A stretch of 64,000 bases of DNA from Actinocatenispora thailandica (GTDB lineage Bacteria; Actinomycetota; Actinomycetes; Mycobacteriales; Micromonosporaceae): contig NZ_AP023355.1 in NCBI RefSeq assembly GCF_016865425.1, forward strand, positions 1,610,198 through 1,674,197, in the 5' to 3' direction. Position numbers and translations under genes: made by a program. Shown here one piece after another: positions 31,631-39,674 of this stretch. How positions within the stretch are numbered: position 1 is the first letter of the stretch; each line of letters opens with the position of its first letter. The notes under the pieces are model-generated. The model was not told the DNA's origin, ran no database searches, and worked only from the letters and a program-made list of their open reading frames with translations.

Positions 31631-31802
31631 CACCATCCGGCAGCCCGGCCCGCGGCGCCTCGTCCAGCCCGGCCTGCGGCACCAGCCGGCAGCCCGGCCT
31701 GCGGCGCCTCGCTCAGCCCGGCCTGCGGCACCGTCCGGCAGCCCGGCCCGCGGCGCGTCGCTCAGCCCAGCCCGCGGTGCGTCGCTCAGCCCGGCTCGCC
31801 GG
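31631..31802. repeat. GC-rich tandem repeat, alternating 25- and 24-bp units
   Basis: Units beginning CACC..CCGGCAGCCCGGCC (25 bp) alternate with units beginning CGCCTCGCTCAGCCCGGCC (24 bp), each ending TGCGG or CGCGG, for about three 49-bp double units plus one partial. The array sits between the esterase terminator and the SARP gene and runs into the last five SARP codons. Confidence 0.85.
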
Positions 31803-34800
31803 TGGCCGCGGCGGCGATGGCGCCCGTCGCCGCGGTCCGGTCCAGCGCGCGCCCGCGCTCGTATGCCGCCGCATACCCGGCCGCGCCCAGGGTCGCGGCC
31901 AGCCGTTCGGCGAGGACCGCGACGTCCGGATTGAACGCGTCGGCCGCACCGCGCAGCGCGTGCGCCGCCCCGAGCAGGACGGCCGCCTCGTCCGCGGCGT
32001 CGTGACGCCACGCGAACCGCGCGGCGGCCACCCCCACCATCGCGGTGACCGGCAGGTCTCGCAGCGGCCCGGCCAGCCCGTACGCGGTGGCCAGGTGGCG
32101 CCGCGCCGCGTCGGGACGATCCTCGTCCAGCCGCAGGTGCGCGATGCCGGCATGCAGCATCGCGCCGAACAACGGTTCGTGCCCGGGCGACCGGTCGAGG
32201 TCGGCGCGCGCCGCCGCGTACTGCCGACGCGCCTCGTCCCGGTCGCCGTCGTGCCGGGCCAGGTTGCCCAGCAGGATGTGCGCGATCACCTGGTACCCGG
32301 CGGCCGACCGTCCGGCCGCGACCACGTCGGTCATCTCGCGGCGGGCGCGGGCCAGATCACCGGTGTGCAGGTGCGCCTGCGCGAGTGAGACCCGTTGCAG
32401 CGTGGTGTCGCCACGGATCTCGTCCAGCAGCGCGATCGCCTCGGTCAGCGCGGCCGCGGCCGTGTCGAACGACCCGAGCGTGCCGTCGGTGAGCCCCTGG
32501 TACGTCAGCGCGGTGGCGAGACCCCAGCGTTCCCCGACCACGCGGAAGGCGGCGACCGCGCCGGCCAGCTCGCGCCGCATCGCCGCCATGTCGCCGGTGT
32601 TGCCGGCCAGCATGGACCGCACCAGCAGCAGCATCGCCCGTACCCACGGGTCGGGATGCCCCCGGTGCCGGTCCACCCGTTCGGCGCCGGCAGCGGCGTC
32701 GTCGTCGTGCAGCGCCAGCAGCGCACCGAGCAGGGCGCCGTCCGGGTCGTTCGGCCCGGCCCACGCCGCGTCCACTGTGGACGGCCGCGGGCCGCGATCG
32801 CCCGCGAGCACCGCGTTGAACAGGTACCAGACCGCGGCAGCGCGCACCGCTTCCGGTGGGCCGAGCCGCACCGGACCTCCCGGCACGCGGGCCGCGGTAC
32901 CGTTGGCGGCCGGCGGGTGCGCGGACGAGCCGACCTCCACCGGCCGCGCGCGGTCCGCGTCGGTCGCGGCTGGCTCCGACGCGGTGGCCGGGTGACGGTC
33001 GGGGCCGGACGGGGTCGGCGTCAGGGCGGTGGCCAGGCGGCGTGTCGCGGCGGCGTGGTCGCCGCGCATCGTCCAGAACTGGCCGAGCGCGGCGCCGAGC
33101 CGTATCGCGGTGTTCGCGTCGCCGTCGGCCGCCGCCCGCTGCGCCGCGGCGGCGAGGTCGGGTTCGTCGTCGATCAGCCGGGCCAGCCAGGGCAACTGCC
33201 CCGGCCCGCGCAGCGGCGCCGCGGCCCGCTCGGCCAGGTCCCGGAAGTGGCCGGAGTACGCGGCGCGCGCCGCCGCCGTCCGGCCTGCCTCGGCGAGCCG
33301 GCCCAGCCCGTACTGACGGATCGTCTCCAGCATCACGAACCGCGGCTCGGCACCGGGCACCGGCTGCAGCAGCGACCGGTCCGCGAGCCCCGACAGCAGG
33401 TCGAGGACGGCGTCGGGGGAGAGGCCGCAGACCCGAGCCGCGGCGGGTACGCCGATCGGGCCGGGGAACACGGCGAGCCGTTCCGCCGCGTCGCGCTCGT
33501 CCGGGGTCAGCAGGTCCCAGCTCCAGGCGACCACCGCCCGCAGCGTGCGGTGCCGAGGTAGCGCGGTGCGGCTGCCACGCGTCAGCAGCGCGAACCGGTC
33601 GCCGAGCCGCGCCGCCACCTGCGCCGCGCTCAGCGCGCCCAACCGGGCGGCGGCCAGCTCGATCGCCAGCGGTAGACCGTCCAGGCGCCGGCAGATCTCG
33701 GCGACCGCGGTGGCGGTGTCGTCGGTGAGCGTGAAGCCCGGCCGTACCGCACCGGCCCGGGCGGCGAACAGCCGTGCCGCCGGGCTGTCACGCACCGCGT
33801 CCGGTGTGGCACCGGCGGCCGGTACGCCCAGCGGCGGCACCGGGCACAGCGCCTCGCCGACAAGTCGTAGCGGCTCCCGGCTGGTGGCGAGGATCCGCAG
33901 CCCCGGGCAGCGGCCCAGCAACTCCTCGGCCAGCTGGGCGATCGCGTCGATCAGGTGCTCGCAGTTGTCGAACACCAGCAGCGCGGCGTCCACGGACAGC
34001 ACCTCGACGAGCCGGTCCACCGCCCGCGCGCCGCCCGGCCGCGTGGCGCGCAGGCCCAGCGCGGCGGTGACCGCGTGCGGCACCTCGGCCGGGTCGGACA
34101 TCGCGCCGAACTCGACCAGCCACACTGGCGTCGCGTCGCCGAGACCGCTCGCGTACGCGACCGCCAGGCGCGTCTTGCCCACCCCGCCGGGGCCGGTCAG
34201 CGTGACGAGCCGGGTGTCGGTGTACCGGCGGCCCACCTCGGCCAGCGCGCCGTCCCGCCCGACCAGCGCGATCAGCGGCACCCGCAGGTTGCCTCGCCGC
34301 CCGCGGTGCGGCGGCACCCCGGACCCGGACGGTGCGGGGTGTGCCCGGGGCCCGGTCCCACCGGGTGCGGCCGGTGTGGCGTCGAGCGACCCGGACGGCG
34401 TCGCGTCCGGTGCCGGCGGACCGTCTCCGGCGGCGGGTCGGTCGGCACCCGGCGTCGCCCGCCGGCCGGCGGCGGTCGACTGCTCGGTACTCGCCGGTCG
34501 CGGCCCCGGGTAGGTGTTCTGCGGCGCGGGCCGCTCGTCGGGCGGTGCCGGCCGCTCGCCAGGCGCGGGCCGCTCGTCGGGCGGTGCCGGCCGCTCGCCA
34601 GGCGCGGGCCGCTCGTCGGGCGGTGCCGGCCGCTCGCCAGGCGCGGCGCGCTCGTCGCGTGCTGTGGTGGGCTGGTCGCCTGCTGCCGGTTGCCCGTACC
34701 GCACTGCGGGCCCGTCGCGCAGTGCCGCCCGGTACGCCGCCTGCAACGGCGGCCCTGGCTCGGTGCCCAGCTGGTCGGCGAGGGTCCGCCTGGTCGCCGC

Positions 34801-35442
34801 GTACCTGGCCAGCGCCTCCGCCCGGCGGCCCTGCCCGGTCAGGGCCAGGATCAGCAGTTCGTGCCCGCGTTCCCGCAACGGATGCTCGGCGACCAGCTCG
34901 GTCAGCCGCGGTACCAGGTCGGCCCGGTCCGGGGTGGCCGTGAGATCGGCGGTGAGCAGGTCCTCGGTCGCGGCGAGCCGCAGCTCGGCGAGCCGGGCGG
35001 CGGCGGCGACCGCGTACCGCGCGTTCGCGGCGTCGGCCAGCGGCGCGCCGCGCCAGAGCCGCAACGCGCCCCGCAGCAGGCTCGCCGCCCGCACCGGGTC
35101 GCCGTCGGCCAGTACCCGTCGACCGTCCCGGGCCTGGCGTTCGAACCGGATCGCGTCGACGGCCTCCGGCGCCAGCGCCAGCGTGTAACCGCCGGGTCCG
35201 GACCGGATCGGGGCGTCGCGGGGCAGGAGCCGCCGCAGTCGCGAGACCAGGGACTGCAGCGCGTGCGCCGGGTCGTCCGGCAGCCGGTCCGGCCACACCG
35301 CGTCGGCCACCTCGTCGACCGACACCGCCCGGTCGGCGTCGACGGCGAGCCGCACCAGGAGCCGGCGCAGCCGCGCACCGCCGATCCGGAGCGGGCCGCC
35401 ATCGACCTGCACCGCGAGCGGCCCGAGCACCCCGACGTCCAC
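31786..35442 (-). CDS. SARP/BTAD-family regulator with NB-ARC ATPase and TPR domains (AfsR-like)
   Basis: A 1218-residue protein starting with GTG at 35442. Residues 1-90 are the OmpR-like winged helix (VLGPLAVQVDGGPLRIGGAR), 95-245 the bacterial transcriptional activator (BTAD) domain. A proline/Arg-rich linker of about 140 residues contains three exact 39-bp repeats. Residues about 385-660 are an NB-ARC ATPase with Walker A LTGPGGVGKTRLAVAYA, Walker B LLVFDNCEHL and the LPLAIELAAARL motif. The rest is helical, TPR-like. Such SARP proteins activate secondary-metabolite or stress genes. There is no biosynthetic cluster beside it, so its target may be distant or the DrrAB operon. Confidence 0.88.
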   Translation of the reverse strand: MDVGVLGPLAVQVDGGPLRIGGARLRRLLVRLAVDADRAVSVDEVADAVWPDRLPDDPAHALQSLVSRLRRLLPRDAPIRSGPGGYTLALAPEAVDAIRFERQARDGRRVLADGDPVRAASLLRGALRLWRGAPLADAANARYAVAAAARLAELRLAATEDLLTADLTATPDRADLVPRLTELVAEHPLRERGHELLILALTGQGRRAEALARYAATRRTLADQLGTEPGPPLQAAYRAALRDGPAVRYGQPAAGDQPTTARDERAAPGERPAPPDERPAPGERPAPPDERPAPGERPAPPDERPAPQNTYPGPRPASTEQSTAAGRRATPGADRPAAGDGPPAPDATPSGSLDATPAAPGGTGPRAHPAPSGSGVPPHRGRRGNLRVPLIALVGRDGALAEVGRRYTDTRLVTLTGPGGVGKTRLAVAYASGLGDATPVWLVEFGAMSDPAEVPHAVTAALGLRATRPGGARAVDRLVEVLSVDAALLVFDNCEHLIDAIAQLAEELLGRCPGLRILATSREPLRLVGEALCPVPPLGVPAAGATPDAVRDSPAARLFAARAGAVRPGFTLTDDTATAVAEICRRLDGLPLAIELAAARLGALSAAQVAARLGDRFALLTRGSRTALPRHRTLRAVVAWSWDLLTPDERDAAERLAVFPGPIGVPAAARVCGLSPDAVLDLLSGLADRSLLQPVPGAEPRFVMLETIRQYGLGRLAEAGRTAAARAAYSGHFRDLAERAAAPLRGPGQLPWLARLIDDEPDLAAAAQRAAADGDANTAIRLGAALGQFWTMRGDHAAATRRLATALTPTPSGPDRHPATASEPAATDADRARPVEVGSSAHPPAANGTAARVPGGPVRLGPPEAVRAAAVWYLFNAVLAGDRGPRPSTVDAAWAGPNDPDGALLGALLALHDDDAAAGAERVDRHRGHPDPWVRAMLLLVRSMLAGNTGDMAAMRRELAGAVAAFRVVGERWGLATALTYQGLTDGTLGSFDTAAAALTEAIALLDEIRGDTTLQRVSLAQAHLHTGDLARARREMTDVVAAGRSAAGYQVIAHILLGNLARHDGDRDEARRQYAAARADLDRSPGHEPLFGAMLHAGIAHLRLDEDRPDAARRHLATAYGLAGPLRDLPVTAMVGVAAARFAWRHDAADEAAVLLGAAHALRGAADAFNPDVAVLAERLAATLGAAGYAAAYERGRALDRTAATGAIAAAATGEPG
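34523..34639 (-). repeat. Three exact 39-bp coding repeats in the SARP linker
   Basis: Three identical 39-bp copies at 34523-34561, 34562-34600 and 34601-34639, with a decayed fourth after them, encode the 13-residue unit PAPPDERPAPGER. Exact identity implies recent expansion. The period is a multiple of three, so length can vary without frameshift. Confidence 0.9.
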
Positions 35443-35643: not shown

Positions 35644-36012
35644 TCACGCCCCGGCACGTGGCCCGGTTTCGTCGTCGGACCCGCCGTGACTGAGCGGTTT
35701 CGGCTGGTCGGTGTCCTGCTGGTACTGGCGGTTGAGGCGTTGGGCTTCGGCGAGTTGGTCTTCCAGGACGATGATCCGGCATGCGGCGTCGATCGCGGTG
35801 CCCTCGTCGACCAGTGCGCGGGTACGGGCGGCGAGACGGAGCTGGTAGCGGGAGTAGCGGCGGTGCCCGCCCTCGGACCGGTGCGGGTTGAGCAGTCTCG
35901 TTTCCAGGCTTCGCAGAAAGTCCTGGGAGACTCCGACCAGCTCGGCCGCTTGTCCCATGGTGTATGCGGGGTAGTTGTCGTCGTCGAACATGTCTTCGAG
36001 CTGTTGGCCCAT
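35644..36012 (-). CDS. MerR-type HTH regulator, paralogue of the gene at 37540
   Basis: A 122-residue protein with AGGAGGG six bases before the ATG at 36012. Residues about 15-50 (YTMGQAAELVGVSQDFLRSL, then ETRLLNPHRSEGGHRRYSRY) form the MerR winged helix as in HspR-like proteins. LRLAARTRALVDEGTAIDAA CRII continues the DNA-binding domain, and a coiled segment LEDQLAEAQRLNRQYQQD follows for dimerisation. It is a close paralogue of the MerR protein at 37540-37989, and the two bracket the hsp20 gene in divergent orientation. Repression or activation of the small heat-shock gene is a reasonable inference. Confidence 0.85.
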   Translation of the reverse strand: MGQQLEDMFDDDNYPAYTMGQAAELVGVSQDFLRSLETRLLNPHRSEGGHRRYSRYQLRLAARTRALVDEGTAIDAACRIIVLEDQLAEAQRLNRQYQQDTDQPKPLSHGGSDDETGPRAGA

Positions 36013-36442
36013 GCACCCTCCTGTTGGCCTCGGCCAGACGCAGTCGAGGGCCCCCGGCGCGGGTACGCCGGGGGCCCAGGGTTCGGGATCGATACCACCA
36101 ACTGCCGACATCGTGTCGGCGCCTTGTTTCCGCACCCGGGTCACGGGACCACAAGGTGCGGGGATCGCGTAAACGTGACCGGAGATCACCACCTCGGTCT
36201 CGATGGACTCTCGACGGTGTCCGCCCGGCATCGACATCGCTGCCCGGGCGGGCGATCCAACGGTGTCTGTCACCCTCCCTTTCCTGCGAACCTTCACTTC
36301 CTTCTACCGGCTGTCGATGCGGGTGATCCGGTCTCGCCGTCCACCTGCTCCGGCAGCGCTCCACTCGTCGGCAAACCCAGCTCGGGCCTGCCTCCGCGCC
36401 CTCGACGGCGCGGCTACTGCGTCGGCGTTCGTCCTGGTCTTC
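36013..36442. other. Long upstream region of the heat-shock locus, no confident gene
   Basis: About 430 bases divergent between the MerR gene and the first candidate promoter. Open frames exist (for example 36203-36496, plus strand) but lack ribosome sites and family features. I see no gene here; it presumably holds the promoter of the minus-strand MerR gene. Confidence 0.5.
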
Positions 36443-36446
36443 GCTG

Positions 36447-36490
36447 TTGACAGGGGAAACCCTAGGCGACGTTTCATCGAATGTCTAGGG
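36447..36490 (+). promoter_or_regulatory. Candidate promoter with long spacer and CCCTAG/CTAGGG dyad
   Basis: A consensus -35 TTGACA (36447-36452), a 19-bp spacer and a weak -10 TTTCAT (36472-36477). CCCTAG at 36460-36465 and CTAGGG at 36485-36490 form a dyad with a 19-base centre across the -10. A 19-bp spacer is typical of promoters controlled by MerR-type activators. Confidence 0.45.
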
Positions 36491-36642
36491 CCGTGAGCCC
36501 AGATTTTCGCGTGTCGCGGGCCGGGGTGGAGCGCGGCATCGCGCGCTCCCGGTCGGATCCGGCGGCGGTGGCGGCGAGTCCCGGAGTGGTCGGCCCGGCG
36601 TGCCGCGTCGTTCGGCGGGATCGGCGGGATCGGCGGACCGGC

Positions 36643-36708
36643 TTGACGGCGCCCGCTGGACCGCTAAAATTGGTCTCGCCACTACAGGATTTGCCCCATG
36701 GCTAGGGG
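36643..36708 (+). promoter_or_regulatory. Strong sigma-70-like promoter of the hsp20 unit with CTAGGGG operator-like site
   Basis: -35 TTGACG (36643-36648), 16-bp spacer, -10 TAAAAT (36665-36670). About 25 bases after the -10 lies CCCC-ATGGCTA-GGGG (36694-36708), which shares CTAGGG with the upstream dyad. It drives towards the 40-codon ORF and hsp20. Confidence 0.65.
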
Positions 36709-36732
36709 TGGTTTGTTGCTGTGGAGGTGAGT

Positions 36733-36756
36733 GATCGATGTCGGCCACCATCGATC
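36733..36756 (+). promoter_or_regulatory. RNA hairpin burying the start codon of the small ORF
   Basis: GATCGATG (36733-36740) and CATCGATC (36749-36756) form a perfect 8-bp stem with an 8-base loop in the mRNA. The last three bases of the 5' arm are the ATG of the small ORF, and the Shine-Dalgarno sequence lies immediately upstream. Such a structure could make translation temperature- or protein-dependent. Confidence 0.55.
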
Positions 36757-36860
36757 GGACGGCGCGTGGGCGGCGGTGGCCGCGGCGCCGTGGCCGCCGG
36801 GTCTGGCATCCGCGCAGCCCGTGGCGGCCGTGGCCTGGAGGGCCGATACGGCTGGCCTGA
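36738..36860 (+). CDS. Small arginine/tryptophan/proline-rich ORF upstream of hsp20
   Basis: A 40-codon ORF starting MSATIDRTARGRRWPRRRGR and ending with the motif WPGGPIRLA. GGAGGTGA at 36723-36730, a full match to the anti-Shine-Dalgarno sequence, lies seven bases before the ATG; this is the strongest ribosome site seen in the window. It stops 53 bases before the hsp20 start and is presumably on the same transcript. It carries 13 Arg and 5 Trp, so it could be a nucleic-acid- or membrane-binding peptide, or a leader whose translation controls hsp20. It has no recognised family. Coding status rests on the ribosome site and position. Confidence 0.5.
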   Translation: MSATIDRTARGRRWPRRRGRRVWHPRSPWRPWPGGPIRLA

Positions 36861-36913
36861 GCGCCGGCCCGACACGTTGTGGTGTTTGTTGATCGTTGCG
36901 GGAGTGATGGTTG

Positions 36914-37351
36914 ATGAGCATGGTGCGGTTTGATCCGTTCCGGGAGATCGAGCAGTTCGCCAACGGCTGGGCCACCGAGCCGGCCTGGCGGGCCCGCTGG
37001 GCGGCGATGGACGCGTTCAAGTCCGGGGACGCCTACCAGGTGCGGCTGGATCTGCCCGGCATCGACGAGGACTCGTTGGACGTCACCGCGGAGAACAACA
37101 CGTTGACAGTGCGGGCGCGGCGTGACGTCGACGCGCCGAAGGGTGCGGAGTTCGTGGCGCGCGAGCGTCCGGTGGGCACCTTCACCCGGCAGATGGTGCT
37201 GGGTGACGGGCTGGATGTGGAGAAGGTGTCGGCCGACTACCGCAACGGCGTGCTGACGGTGACGATCCCGGTCGCCGAGCACGCCAAGCCGCGGCGGATC
37301 CCGATCGCCCGCCCCGCCGGCGGTAACCGGAAGGTCATCGAGTCCGGCTGA
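36914..37351 (+). CDS. Hsp20/alpha-crystallin small heat-shock protein
   Basis: A 145-residue chaperone. Residues about 35-130 are the alpha-crystallin domain: AFKSGDAYQVRLDLPGIDED, SLDVTAENNTLTVRARRDVD and RPVGTFTRQMVLGDGLDVEK. The conserved YRNGVLTVTIPVAE (A-x-x-x-n-G-v-L motif) follows, and the short tail PRRIPIARP carries the I-x-I oligomerisation motif. GGAGTGA lies six bases before the ATG at 36914. It binds unfolding proteins in large oligomers without ATP. Paralogous MerR genes flank it on both sides, pointing to dedicated local control. Confidence 0.95.
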   Translation: MSMVRFDPFREIEQFANGWATEPAWRARWAAMDAFKSGDAYQVRLDLPGIDEDSLDVTAENNTLTVRARRDVDAPKGAEFVARERPVGTFTRQMVLGDGLDVEKVSADYRNGVLTVTIPVAEHAKPRRIPIARPAGGNRKVIESG

Positions 37352-37464
37352 CCGGGACCCGGTGCTCGAACACGGGCAGGCAGGGGCCCGGCGCATTGGG
37401 GTGATCGACTCTCGCGCGAAGAGGTGATGCCCGGGATCGGATCTTTCGGCTGACGGTTTCTCGG

Positions 37465-37516
37465 TGCTGGCTGCCCACCCCGTTCGGTGATCCTTCAGCG
37501 GGGTGGGCAGCCAGCA
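37465..37516 (+). promoter_or_regulatory. 18-bp perfect hairpin between hsp20 and the downstream MerR gene
   Basis: Bases 37465-37482 pair without mismatch with 37499-37516 around a 16-base loop. The 3' arm ends seven bases before the AGGAAGG ribosome site of the MerR gene at 37540. It could end hsp20 transcription, act as an attenuator for the MerR gene or protect the hsp20 mRNA 3' end. Confidence 0.8.
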
Positions 37517-37539
37517 ACACGGCAGGAAGGTGGCGTCCG

Positions 37540-37989
37540 GTGTTCGCAGACAGCGCACCCGAGACACCCGGGTTCGGGGCACCCGACCCGCAGGCACCCG
37601 ACTCGCCGGCGCCCGGGCTCGATCGGTCCGGGTTGATCGGGACGCGAACGCCGGCGTTCACGATCGGGACCGCGGCGCACCTGTTGGGGGTCAGCCAGGC
37701 GTTCCTGCGTCAGCTGGGCGTCAACGGGCTCCTGGACCCGCAACGCTCGGCCGGCGGGCACCGCCGCTACAGCCAGCACGACCTGGGCCTGGCCAGCCAG
37801 GCCCGAGTGCTGGTCGACGAGGGCCTGTCGATGGACGCCGCGTGCCGCATCGTGACCCTGCAGGTCGAACTCGCCTACGCCCGGGCCGAGATCGCCGAAC
37901 TGCACCGGCAACTGGACACCACCGCCAGCTCGCAGAACGTCGCTACCGATCCCGCCACCACTTCCAGCCCGGACATCGTCGACCGCTGA
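37540..37989 (+). CDS. MerR-type HTH regulator, paralogue of the gene at 35644
   Basis: A 149-residue protein from a GTG with AGGAAGG upstream. After a Pro/Ala-rich N-terminus of about 40 residues, FTIGTAAHLLGVSQAFLRQL and LLDPQRSAGGHRRYSQHDLG make the MerR winged helix, LASQARVLVDEGLSMDAACR continues it, and a coiled helix (VELAYARAEIAELHRQLD) follows. It matches the regulator at 35644-36012 across the whole HTH, including the VDEG..(I/M)DAACRI(I/V) segment, so the pair arose by duplication. It follows hsp20 in the same direction behind an 18-bp hairpin and ends inside another very long hairpin. Confidence 0.85.
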   Translation: MFADSAPETPGFGAPDPQAPDSPAPGLDRSGLIGTRTPAFTIGTAAHLLGVSQAFLRQLGVNGLLDPQRSAGGHRRYSQHDLGLASQARVLVDEGLSMDAACRIVTLQVELAYARAEIAELHRQLDTTASSQNVATDPATTSSPDIVDR

Positions 37990-38834: not shown

Positions 38835-39674
38835 TCAGTGCCGGGAGACCGGGTGCGGCCGGCGCGAGAGCATCAACGCCATCCCGACGATCAGCAGCAC
38901 CAGCCCCGCGCCAGCGCCGGCGAACCACCAGCCGGATCCACCGGATGCGGCCTGTCCGCCCGTTCCGGCCGGCATTCCACCCGGTGCCTCACCCAGGCCG
39001 GTGAGGTTCTGAGCGACCAGAGCGAGCGACTTGTCCTTGGCGGAGCCGATCGCGTACACGATCGTTTCGGTTCCGGCCTGCAGGTTCAGCGTTTGCGGGC
39101 CGATGGCGACGGTGTTGGTGCCGGCCAGGACCACGTCGGCCTTGACACTTCCGGCGGGCAGGTCTGCGGACGCCTGCTTGGGGTTCGTGAGGTCGGCGAA
39201 AGCCACCTTGCCGTCGGCGCGAACATCCACGGCGGGTGCCGCGGCAGTGTGCCGGACCACCAGCCGTGCCATCCCCGGCTTGATCATGCTGGTGTCGTTG
39301 ACGAACGGTGTCAGGGCCGGCTTGCCGTCCGCGGTCAGATGTGCGACCAGGCTGAGGTTCTTGCCGCCGGGCACGGCCAGCGACTTGTTCTCGATGATCG
39401 GCGAGTCCACCGATCCGCCTGGTTTGGTCAATGCCACGTCGTAGCTGCCTGCCGGAAGCGACAGCGGCCCGGCGACCTTCGTCGGTTGGAAGTTGCTCAG
39501 CGTCTTCTTGCCGTTGACATAGACGTCGACCGGCTGGCCCGGAATGCCGTGCACGACCGACACGCTGGAATCCTCGGCCGCTGAGGCCGGTGTGACCACT
39601 GCTACTCCAGCTGCGGCTCCCGCGACCAACATGGCGGCAGCCATGCCGATTCGCCGTAGGTGCGAGAAGGTCAT
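38835..39674 (-). CDS. DUF4397 surface protein
   Basis: A 279-residue secreted protein. Residues 1-32 are a signal peptide ending TPASAAED. Two DUF4397 beta-rich modules follow: VSVVHGIPGQPVDVYVNGKK and ARLVVRHTAAAPAVDVRADG. After a Gly/Pro/Ser linker comes a C-terminal hydrophobic segment WWFAGAGAGLVLLIVGMALM and a basic tail LSRRPHPVSRH. That end resembles a sortase-type tail without a clear LPxTG-like motif, or a plain membrane anchor. It heads a two-gene unit with the class F sortase and is divergent from the ECF sigma factor; candidate ECF promoters serve both. Confidence 0.9.
   Translation of the reverse strand: MTFSHLRRIGMAAAMLVAGAAAGVAVVTPASAAEDSSVSVVHGIPGQPVDVYVNGKKTLSNFQPTKVAGPLSLPAGSYDVALTKPGGSVDSPIIENKSLAVPGGKNLSLVAHLTADGKPALTPFVNDTSMIKPGMARLVVRHTAAAPAVDVRADGKVAFADLTNPKQASADLPAGSVKADVVLAGTNTVAIGPQTLNLQAGTETIVYAIGSAKDKSLALVAQNLTGLGEAPGGMPAGTGGQAASGGSGWWFAGAGAGLVLLIVGMALMLSRRPHPVSRH

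Follow-up and report, generated by a model that had tools for sequence, protein, structure and literature searches.

Why should one small heat-shock gene be bracketed by two related regulators? The question arises in a 64,000-nucleotide stretch of the Actinocatenispora thailandica genome (contig NZ_AP023355.1, positions 1,610,198 to 1,674,197; hereafter the window, whose coordinates we use throughout), where hsp20 lies between two MerR-type regulator genes that we designate reg1 and reg2. We propose that two modules probably meet back to back here: an hsp20-reg2 pair and an autoregulated unit comprising a promoter site, a structured RNA core, a hairpin and reg1. The RNA leader in the gap between reg1 and hsp20 went unmentioned in a first-pass annotation of this DNA. 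We assign a probability of roughly 45% to the broader reading that the RNA represents a widespread, undescribed class of trans-acting structured RNAs in filamentous actinobacteria, with promoters controlled by a dedicated MerR-type subfamily, usually co-transcribed with that regulator and wired into heat, cold and partner-switching stress genes. The three genes are as follows.

35644 to 36012, minus strand: reg1, a 122-amino acid MerR-type regulator of the RNA-linked subfamily (open reading frame, Pfam MerR_1, tree).
36914 to 37351, plus strand: hsp20, 145 amino acids, the sole match in the genome at E ≤ 1e-20 (open reading frame, HSP20 profile).
37540 to 37989, plus strand: reg2, a MerR-type regulator downstream of hsp20, 149 amino acids, start codon uncertain (open reading frame, Pfam MerR_1).

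The gene layout described in the first-pass annotation holds up. Pfam MerR_1 matches both regulators above its cut-off (2.6e-11 and 4.1e-12), and the HSP20 profile matches the middle gene (5.5e-24). With 56% identity over 87 amino acids (E 6e-30) and a VDEG..(I/M)DAACRI stretch in common, the regulators are paralogs, reg1 directed away from hsp20 and reg2 downstream of it on the same strand. The interpretation placed on this layout, a single two-regulator switch dedicated to hsp20, is not supported: reg1-type genes mostly lie elsewhere, and in this genome the conserved site described below occurs only at the reg1 promoter. The unit to which reg1 belongs has the following parts.

36459 to 36506, minus strand: promoter of reg1 and its RNA with an operator-like site, recognized by conservation: AAATCT (36501 to 36506), N13, TAGACA as the -35 element (36482 to 36487), N17, TAGGGT as the -10 element (36459 to 36464).
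36013 to 36452, minus strand: putative reg1 leader of about 440 nucleotides, its 5' end placed from the promoter (conserved promoter and conserved downstream core).
36090 to 36269, minus strand: structured RNA core, model R1, 176 positions and 32 pairs (covariance-supported fold).
36048 to 36077, minus strand: terminator-like hairpin with a 13-bp stem and no U run, lying after the RNA core and before the reg1 ribosome-binding site.

The core is common to reg1-type leaders of several actinomycete families; the window copy scores 108 bits (E 3e-22) and is the sole match in this genome at E ≤ 1. An alignment of 45 sequences, the training set, yielded 32 pairs that form a closing stem, a long-range GATCGC/GCGATC helix and side hairpins. 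In this set 94.3% of 1440 cells are paired, with 74 two-sided changes versus 30 in shuffles, and the percentage paired, the number of two-sided-change cells and the covariation score exceed those of all 500 shuffles. Among 31 sequences outside the training set, which were aligned by fitting to the R1 model (a procedure that favours R1) and some of which come from genomes that supplied another copy for training, 95.5% of cells are paired and 41 two-sided changes occur versus 16 in shuffles; the five measures were reached by 0, 0, 0, 2 (pairs with a two-sided change) and 0 (pair types) of 500 shuffles. Sliding the pairing partner in these sequences gave at most 57% paired. Compensatory changes thus support an RNA fold in the 45 training and the 31 other sequences. 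The core and hairpin of the window together fold better than all 200 shuffles (z -3.9).

The structured RNA appears to be uncatalogued. Across the window and the loci scanned, no Rfam 15 family reached its gathering score on the element, and the weak cspA, tmRNA and ncS011 matches all fell outside it. In the portions of the literature that our searches covered, nothing matched an RNA of this kind or an hsp20-MerR operon. A Guanidine-III riboswitch in a Streptomyces katrae locus (L130, 11930 to 11990, plus strand) is unrelated to the RNA element.

A stem of at least 11 bp was found within 22 nucleotides behind 69 of 70 cores, where shuffled sequences gave a mean of 0.05. We placed 172 regulators in a tree, classing them by distance limits of 420 nucleotides from an RNA and 600 nucleotides from hsp20: 107 lie behind an RNA, 25 behind hsp20 and none behind both. 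The RNA-linked regulators fall in one branch of 125 (107 with an RNA and 18 without a detected one; support 94/97), and reg1 belongs to a subfamily other than that of reg2. The deeper order is uncertain because the alignment has few columns (101) and several branches are long.

The promoter is the second conserved component. Alignment of the window with two genomes of the same genus (G050 and G070) and one from another genus of the family (G132) revealed a conserved minus-strand unit, AAATCT-N13-TAGACA-N17-TAnnnT. The site occurs upstream of 70 of 115 deduplicated regions labelled reg1, two of which are hsp20-promoter sites seen through an hsp20 gene (shuffled mean 0.05), and upstream of 9 of 27 regions labelled reg2 and 13 of 36 hsp20 genes (shuffled 0). 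Its spacer is 13 nucleotides in all 70 reg1-labelled sites, with 8 to 18 allowed, and 11 in one reg2-labelled region (L065). TAnnnT follows the site by 16 to 18 nucleotides in 66 of 68 reg1-labelled regions (shuffled mean 3). At reg1 promoters the site covers the -35 element plus the region upstream of it. At many relatives' hsp20 promoters it overlaps, by eye, both the -35 (TTGAAA) and the -10 (TAGAAT), a placement that points to repression; G093 and G009 have it further upstream. The A. thailandica genome contains even the looser form AATCT-N13-TAGA exactly once, at the reg1 promoter; the hsp20 promoter is about 140 bp away.

The first-pass annotation had pointed instead to a recurring CTAGGG motif. 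Its copies are indeed present at 36460 (minus), 36485 (plus) and 36702 (plus), and the motif is clustered rather than over-represented, since these are three of the four copies in the window, where shuffling predicts 10.9. It is not conserved in relatives. On the hsp20 strand, the first two places read CTAGC and CTAGT in G050, CTAGA and CTAGT in G070, and CTACA and CTACT in G132; at the third, CTAG is missing from both G050 and G070. This comparison ruled out CTAGGG as an operator shared by the two regulators, and what is conserved instead is the reg1 promoter unit, whose -35 and -10 hexamers are overlapped by the copies at 36485 and 36460, respectively.

We searched for the RNA in 200 genomes of the family and found it in 95 of them, in 137 copies by the sum of matches. 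A reg1-type match accompanies it in every one of the 95; a further 15 genomes have the reg1-type match alone and 90 have neither. Among 296 genomes of the phylum, searched with stricter filters by which weak matches may be lost, nine carry the RNA: A. thailandica itself and eight members of one genus (g50), with one to four copies each. Because its regulators group with named Streptomyces loci in the tree, g50 is presumably Streptomyces. Fifteen of the 17 copies in this sample, the window included, directly precede reg1; one of the remaining two stands before a SepF-like open reading frame (read by eye) and the other has no reg1. The R1 model also matches 44 of 80 named loci, 21 of these being training sequences. 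At least part of a g50 RNA-reg1 stretch is matched by 89 plasmid records (63 Streptomyces, 21 Rhodococcus), the 25 best of which cover 70 to 83% of it; in phages, no reg1 relative was found. We also observed that Actinoplanes and most Nocardia reg1-type leaders (for example L061 and L066) have the promoter site and a GC-rich hairpin and score mostly below the R1 threshold; these are possibly diverged variants of the RNA.

Some copies stand apart from the regulator. Among 16 such candidates, 15 have no reg1 directly behind them, and the last (L218) is followed by a 32-residue reg1 remnant; one (L226) has a separate RNA-reg1 unit farther away. The strict promoter motif is present in 13 of the 16, L218 included, a loose form in one and neither in two, so that 12 of the 15 copies without reg1 keep the strict motif. 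Bit scores reach 159 (the window copy scores 108), and a hairpin of 11 bp or more stands behind all 16. By a rough gene caller, what follows is a gene on the opposite strand in nine cases and one on the same strand in seven. Because 15 copies have no reg1 behind them and 12 of these have the strict promoter motif, the RNA is probably kept for itself, as an RNA in its own right, while some copies may be decaying or serving another gene in cis.

The same RNA might instead be a cis-acting leader (a riboswitch, attenuator or RNA thermometer) with reg1 as its only target: the core would sense a ligand, a protein or temperature and so decide if the hairpin halts transcription ahead of reg1, and the stand-alone copies would be remnants left by the loss of reg1. 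We regard this as possible, if somewhat unlikely. Such a leader would be expected to sit where 15 of the 17 phylum-sample copies do, and the strong hairpin just behind 69 of 70 cores stands mostly ahead of a reg1 gene; L218, with a decayed reg1 behind an intact RNA, also fits. It accounts less readily for the 15 copies without reg1, their 12 strict promoters and the scores of up to 159 bits, and the window's hairpin lies clear of the reg1 ribosome-binding site.

Several observations weigh against the reading as two modules with a free RNA. The usual place of the RNA, just upstream of reg1, fits a cis-acting leader as well, and the RNA is missing from 15 of the 110 family genomes in which a reg1-type match was found, some of these matches being hsp20-reg2 types. 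The stand-alone candidates are copies without an adjoining reg1 among the matches listed, chosen by eye. In seven of the 15 that lack reg1 the gene that follows has the same orientation (in the other eight, the opposite one), so the RNA could act in cis on other genes, and because L218 is plainly a decayed unit, other stand-alone copies could be remnants too. The promoter motif is lacking in 45 of the 115 reg1-labelled upstream regions, and AAATCT-N13-TAGA is absent from the hsp20 promoter of the window. The hairpin has no U run, and its role as a terminator is putative. Finally, two measures of covariation are less extreme than the others: the number of pairs with a two-sided change was reached by 17 of 500 shuffles in the training set and by 2 of 500 on the other sequences, and the number of pair types in the training set by 9 of 500.

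Could the two regulators nonetheless act together, both binding the shared divergent region to set hsp20 expression? We consider such a switch unlikely here. Their paralogy would suit it, and a synteny search, proposed with the first-pass annotation, did find the three-gene order intact in the congener G050 and in G132 (locus L051), where the same site stands at both divergent promoters; a two-regulator switch is therefore possible in relatives such as G132. Set against it are the lack of CTAGGG conservation and the absence of the conserved site, single in this genome, from the window's hsp20 promoter. The synteny itself is also limited. Of 26 hsp20 loci from other genera of the family, 16, including the 14 closest, have a MerR-type regulator directly downstream and 10 do not, and 14 of those 16 have no reg1-type gene or RNA within about 1.5 kb on each side. 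The hsp20-reg2 pair is thus a recurrent one in the family, and a reg1-type gene lies within 3 kb of hsp20, by eye, in at least 10 of the 200 family genomes.

Within the genus, for which four genomes were compared including that of A. thailandica, G050 has the same three genes, G012 has hsp20-reg2 only, and in G070 the genes are split between two contigs, one with hsp20-reg2 and the other with reg1 next to a truncated hsp20. Broken second copies suggest local rearrangement: in G050 (L056) an hsp20-reg2 pair that is 5'-truncated, and in G070 (L033) an hsp20, next to reg1, that breaks off after about 30 residues. Among the 80 named loci found by alignment with reg2, taken as stretches around each match, six contain hsp20: one from Actinocatenispora rupis with reg2 alone, three from Actinomadura and one from Nonomuraea in which the two types of regulator are both present in other gene orders, and one from Nocardia. 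In two of the Actinomadura loci (L069 and L133) the regulators of the hsp20 cluster are separated by a STAS-like gene, recognized by eye. In the Nocardia rhizosphaerihabitans locus (L117) hsp20 and an HspR-like regulator are divergently oriented, and a reg1-type gene lies some 2 kb off; we rejected the locus as a three-gene cluster, as its second regulator groups with true HspR in the tree and not with reg2.

It is very improbable that the conservation stems from a small protein not yet recognised, or from a DNA-level element (the end of a mobile element, for instance), and not from an RNA: up to four copies per genome in the Streptomyces-like genus, matches on Streptomyces plasmids and an in-frame reg1 extension running through the region in the window speak for it, but sequences outside training show compensatory base changes, a stop inside the core shortens the extension in G050 and G070, and core lengths vary by steps that are not multiples of three.

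For the arrangement of two modules, we envisage the following mechanism. In the first module, reg2 would most likely repress hsp20 and its own gene until stress. The second would be a transcription unit of the opposite strand, in which AAATCT-N13-TAGACA overlaps a sigma70-type promoter that would drive a long leader with the RNA core, the hairpin and reg1. Proteins of the reg1 type, and by their shared DNA-binding domain those of the reg2 type too, would bind the site and autoregulate. The hairpin may end many transcripts to release a free RNA, with read-through supplying reg1, and the free RNA would act in trans in a stress response. Both modules may share control in those relatives whose hsp20 promoter has the site too; because hsp20 in the window lacks it, any tie between hsp20 and reg1 here would be indirect or run through reg2.

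Genes near the RNA lean towards stress functions, a trend that is suggestive only, the sample being small and its loci related rather than independent. STAS, SpoIIE, cold-shock, HSP20 and ATPase families occur among the near neighbours. Comparing 100 sampled genes near the RNA with 100 far from it, we counted STAS 5 times near and 2 times far, whereas SpoIIE, CSD, HSP20 and HATPase_c_2 were found 4, 3, 3 and 3 times near and were absent among the 25 of 108 far families listed, so that each could still have one member in the far set. A separate test, of 15 versus 2, used a rough count, and we give its p value no weight. By eye, CspA-type cold-shock genes, a family found in the near-neighbour set, lie near RNA copies in L166, L171 to L173, L218 to L220, L223 and L226. 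In the window itself, an open reading frame at 31786 to 35442 (minus strand) encodes, by eye, an AfsR/SARP-like regulator of 1218 amino acids with a tandem Pro/Glu/Arg-rich repeat at about 34500 to 34680.

The hsp20 side of the intergenic region has features of its own.

36643 to 36670, plus strand: hsp20 promoter-like sequence, TTGACG-N16-TAAAAT, conserved in G050 and G070.
36694 to 36708, plus strand: CCCC-N7-GGGG inverted repeat in the hsp20 5' leader, containing the third CTAGGG.
36738 to 36860, plus strand: short upstream open reading frame in the hsp20 leader, 40 amino acids, rich in Arg, Trp and Pro.

This short frame is a candidate leader peptide. Relative to G050 it has 11 synonymous and 4 non-synonymous codon differences; its start is identical in G050 and, by eye, in G070, and a similar frame is present in G012. 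Comparable short Arg-rich frames occur in the hsp20 leaders of G040, G042, G064 and G117.

How does the locus compare with known systems? HspR binds the HAIR operator, CTTGAGT-N7-ACTCAAG, and the RheA operator is TGTCATC-N5-GATGACA. Allowing up to 3 mismatches, we found no HAIR site in the window and no RheA-type site near hsp20, the sole RheA-type match in the window being at 39501, with 3 mismatches and at about the number expected by chance; with neither site near hsp20, control of this gene through HAIR or RheA was set aside. Upstream of hsp20 in G093 (L137) we noted a TGTCATC-N4-GATGACA inverted repeat, like the RheA operator, near AAATCT-N13-TAGATT. Like HspR, reg1 and reg2 have a MerR helix-turn-helix, with MerR_1 above cut-off in both, and a short C-terminal stretch, but NCBIfam model NF047375 scores them at 40.5 and 54.4 bits, below its 105-bit cut-off, and a true HspR (141 bits) is encoded elsewhere in this genome. 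The hsp20 locus resembles hsp18 in pairing a small heat-shock gene with a candidate dedicated repressor. The part of PMC2687793 that we drew on describes HspR control of hsp20 in Deinococcus and RheA as the dedicated repressor of hsp18, a small heat-shock gene of Streptomyces albus.

For the RNA, the closest comparisons are with Ms1/scr3559 and with leaders of the riboswitch type. Both the new RNA and Ms1 are widespread structured RNAs of actinobacteria. Ms1 is flanked by HAD hydrolase and oxidoreductase genes, according to the part of PMC9130861 available to us, whereas the new RNA is linked to MerR genes; identity with Ms1 was set aside on gene context alone, without a dedicated search. Likewise without a dedicated search, we saw by eye no recurrent HAD hydrolase or oxidoreductase neighbour, and no HAD among the 25 of 99 families listed. 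Riboswitch-type leaders in Rfam share with the RNA a conserved structured domain upstream of an open reading frame, but none of Rfam 15 matches it, and RNA copies without the gene retain a promoter. The Streptomyces candidates dauA, livJ, pntA and asfR are also conserved folds upstream of a gene; these four are set apart by the gene downstream, which in the part of PMC11109978 consulted is a different one.

If the reading as a trans-acting RNA class is correct, an added RNA layer would exist in the stress control of the main antibiotic-producing bacteria. The hsp20 locus of A. thailandica would itself be read as the meeting point of two regulatory modules independent of each other, and not as a single switch with two regulators.

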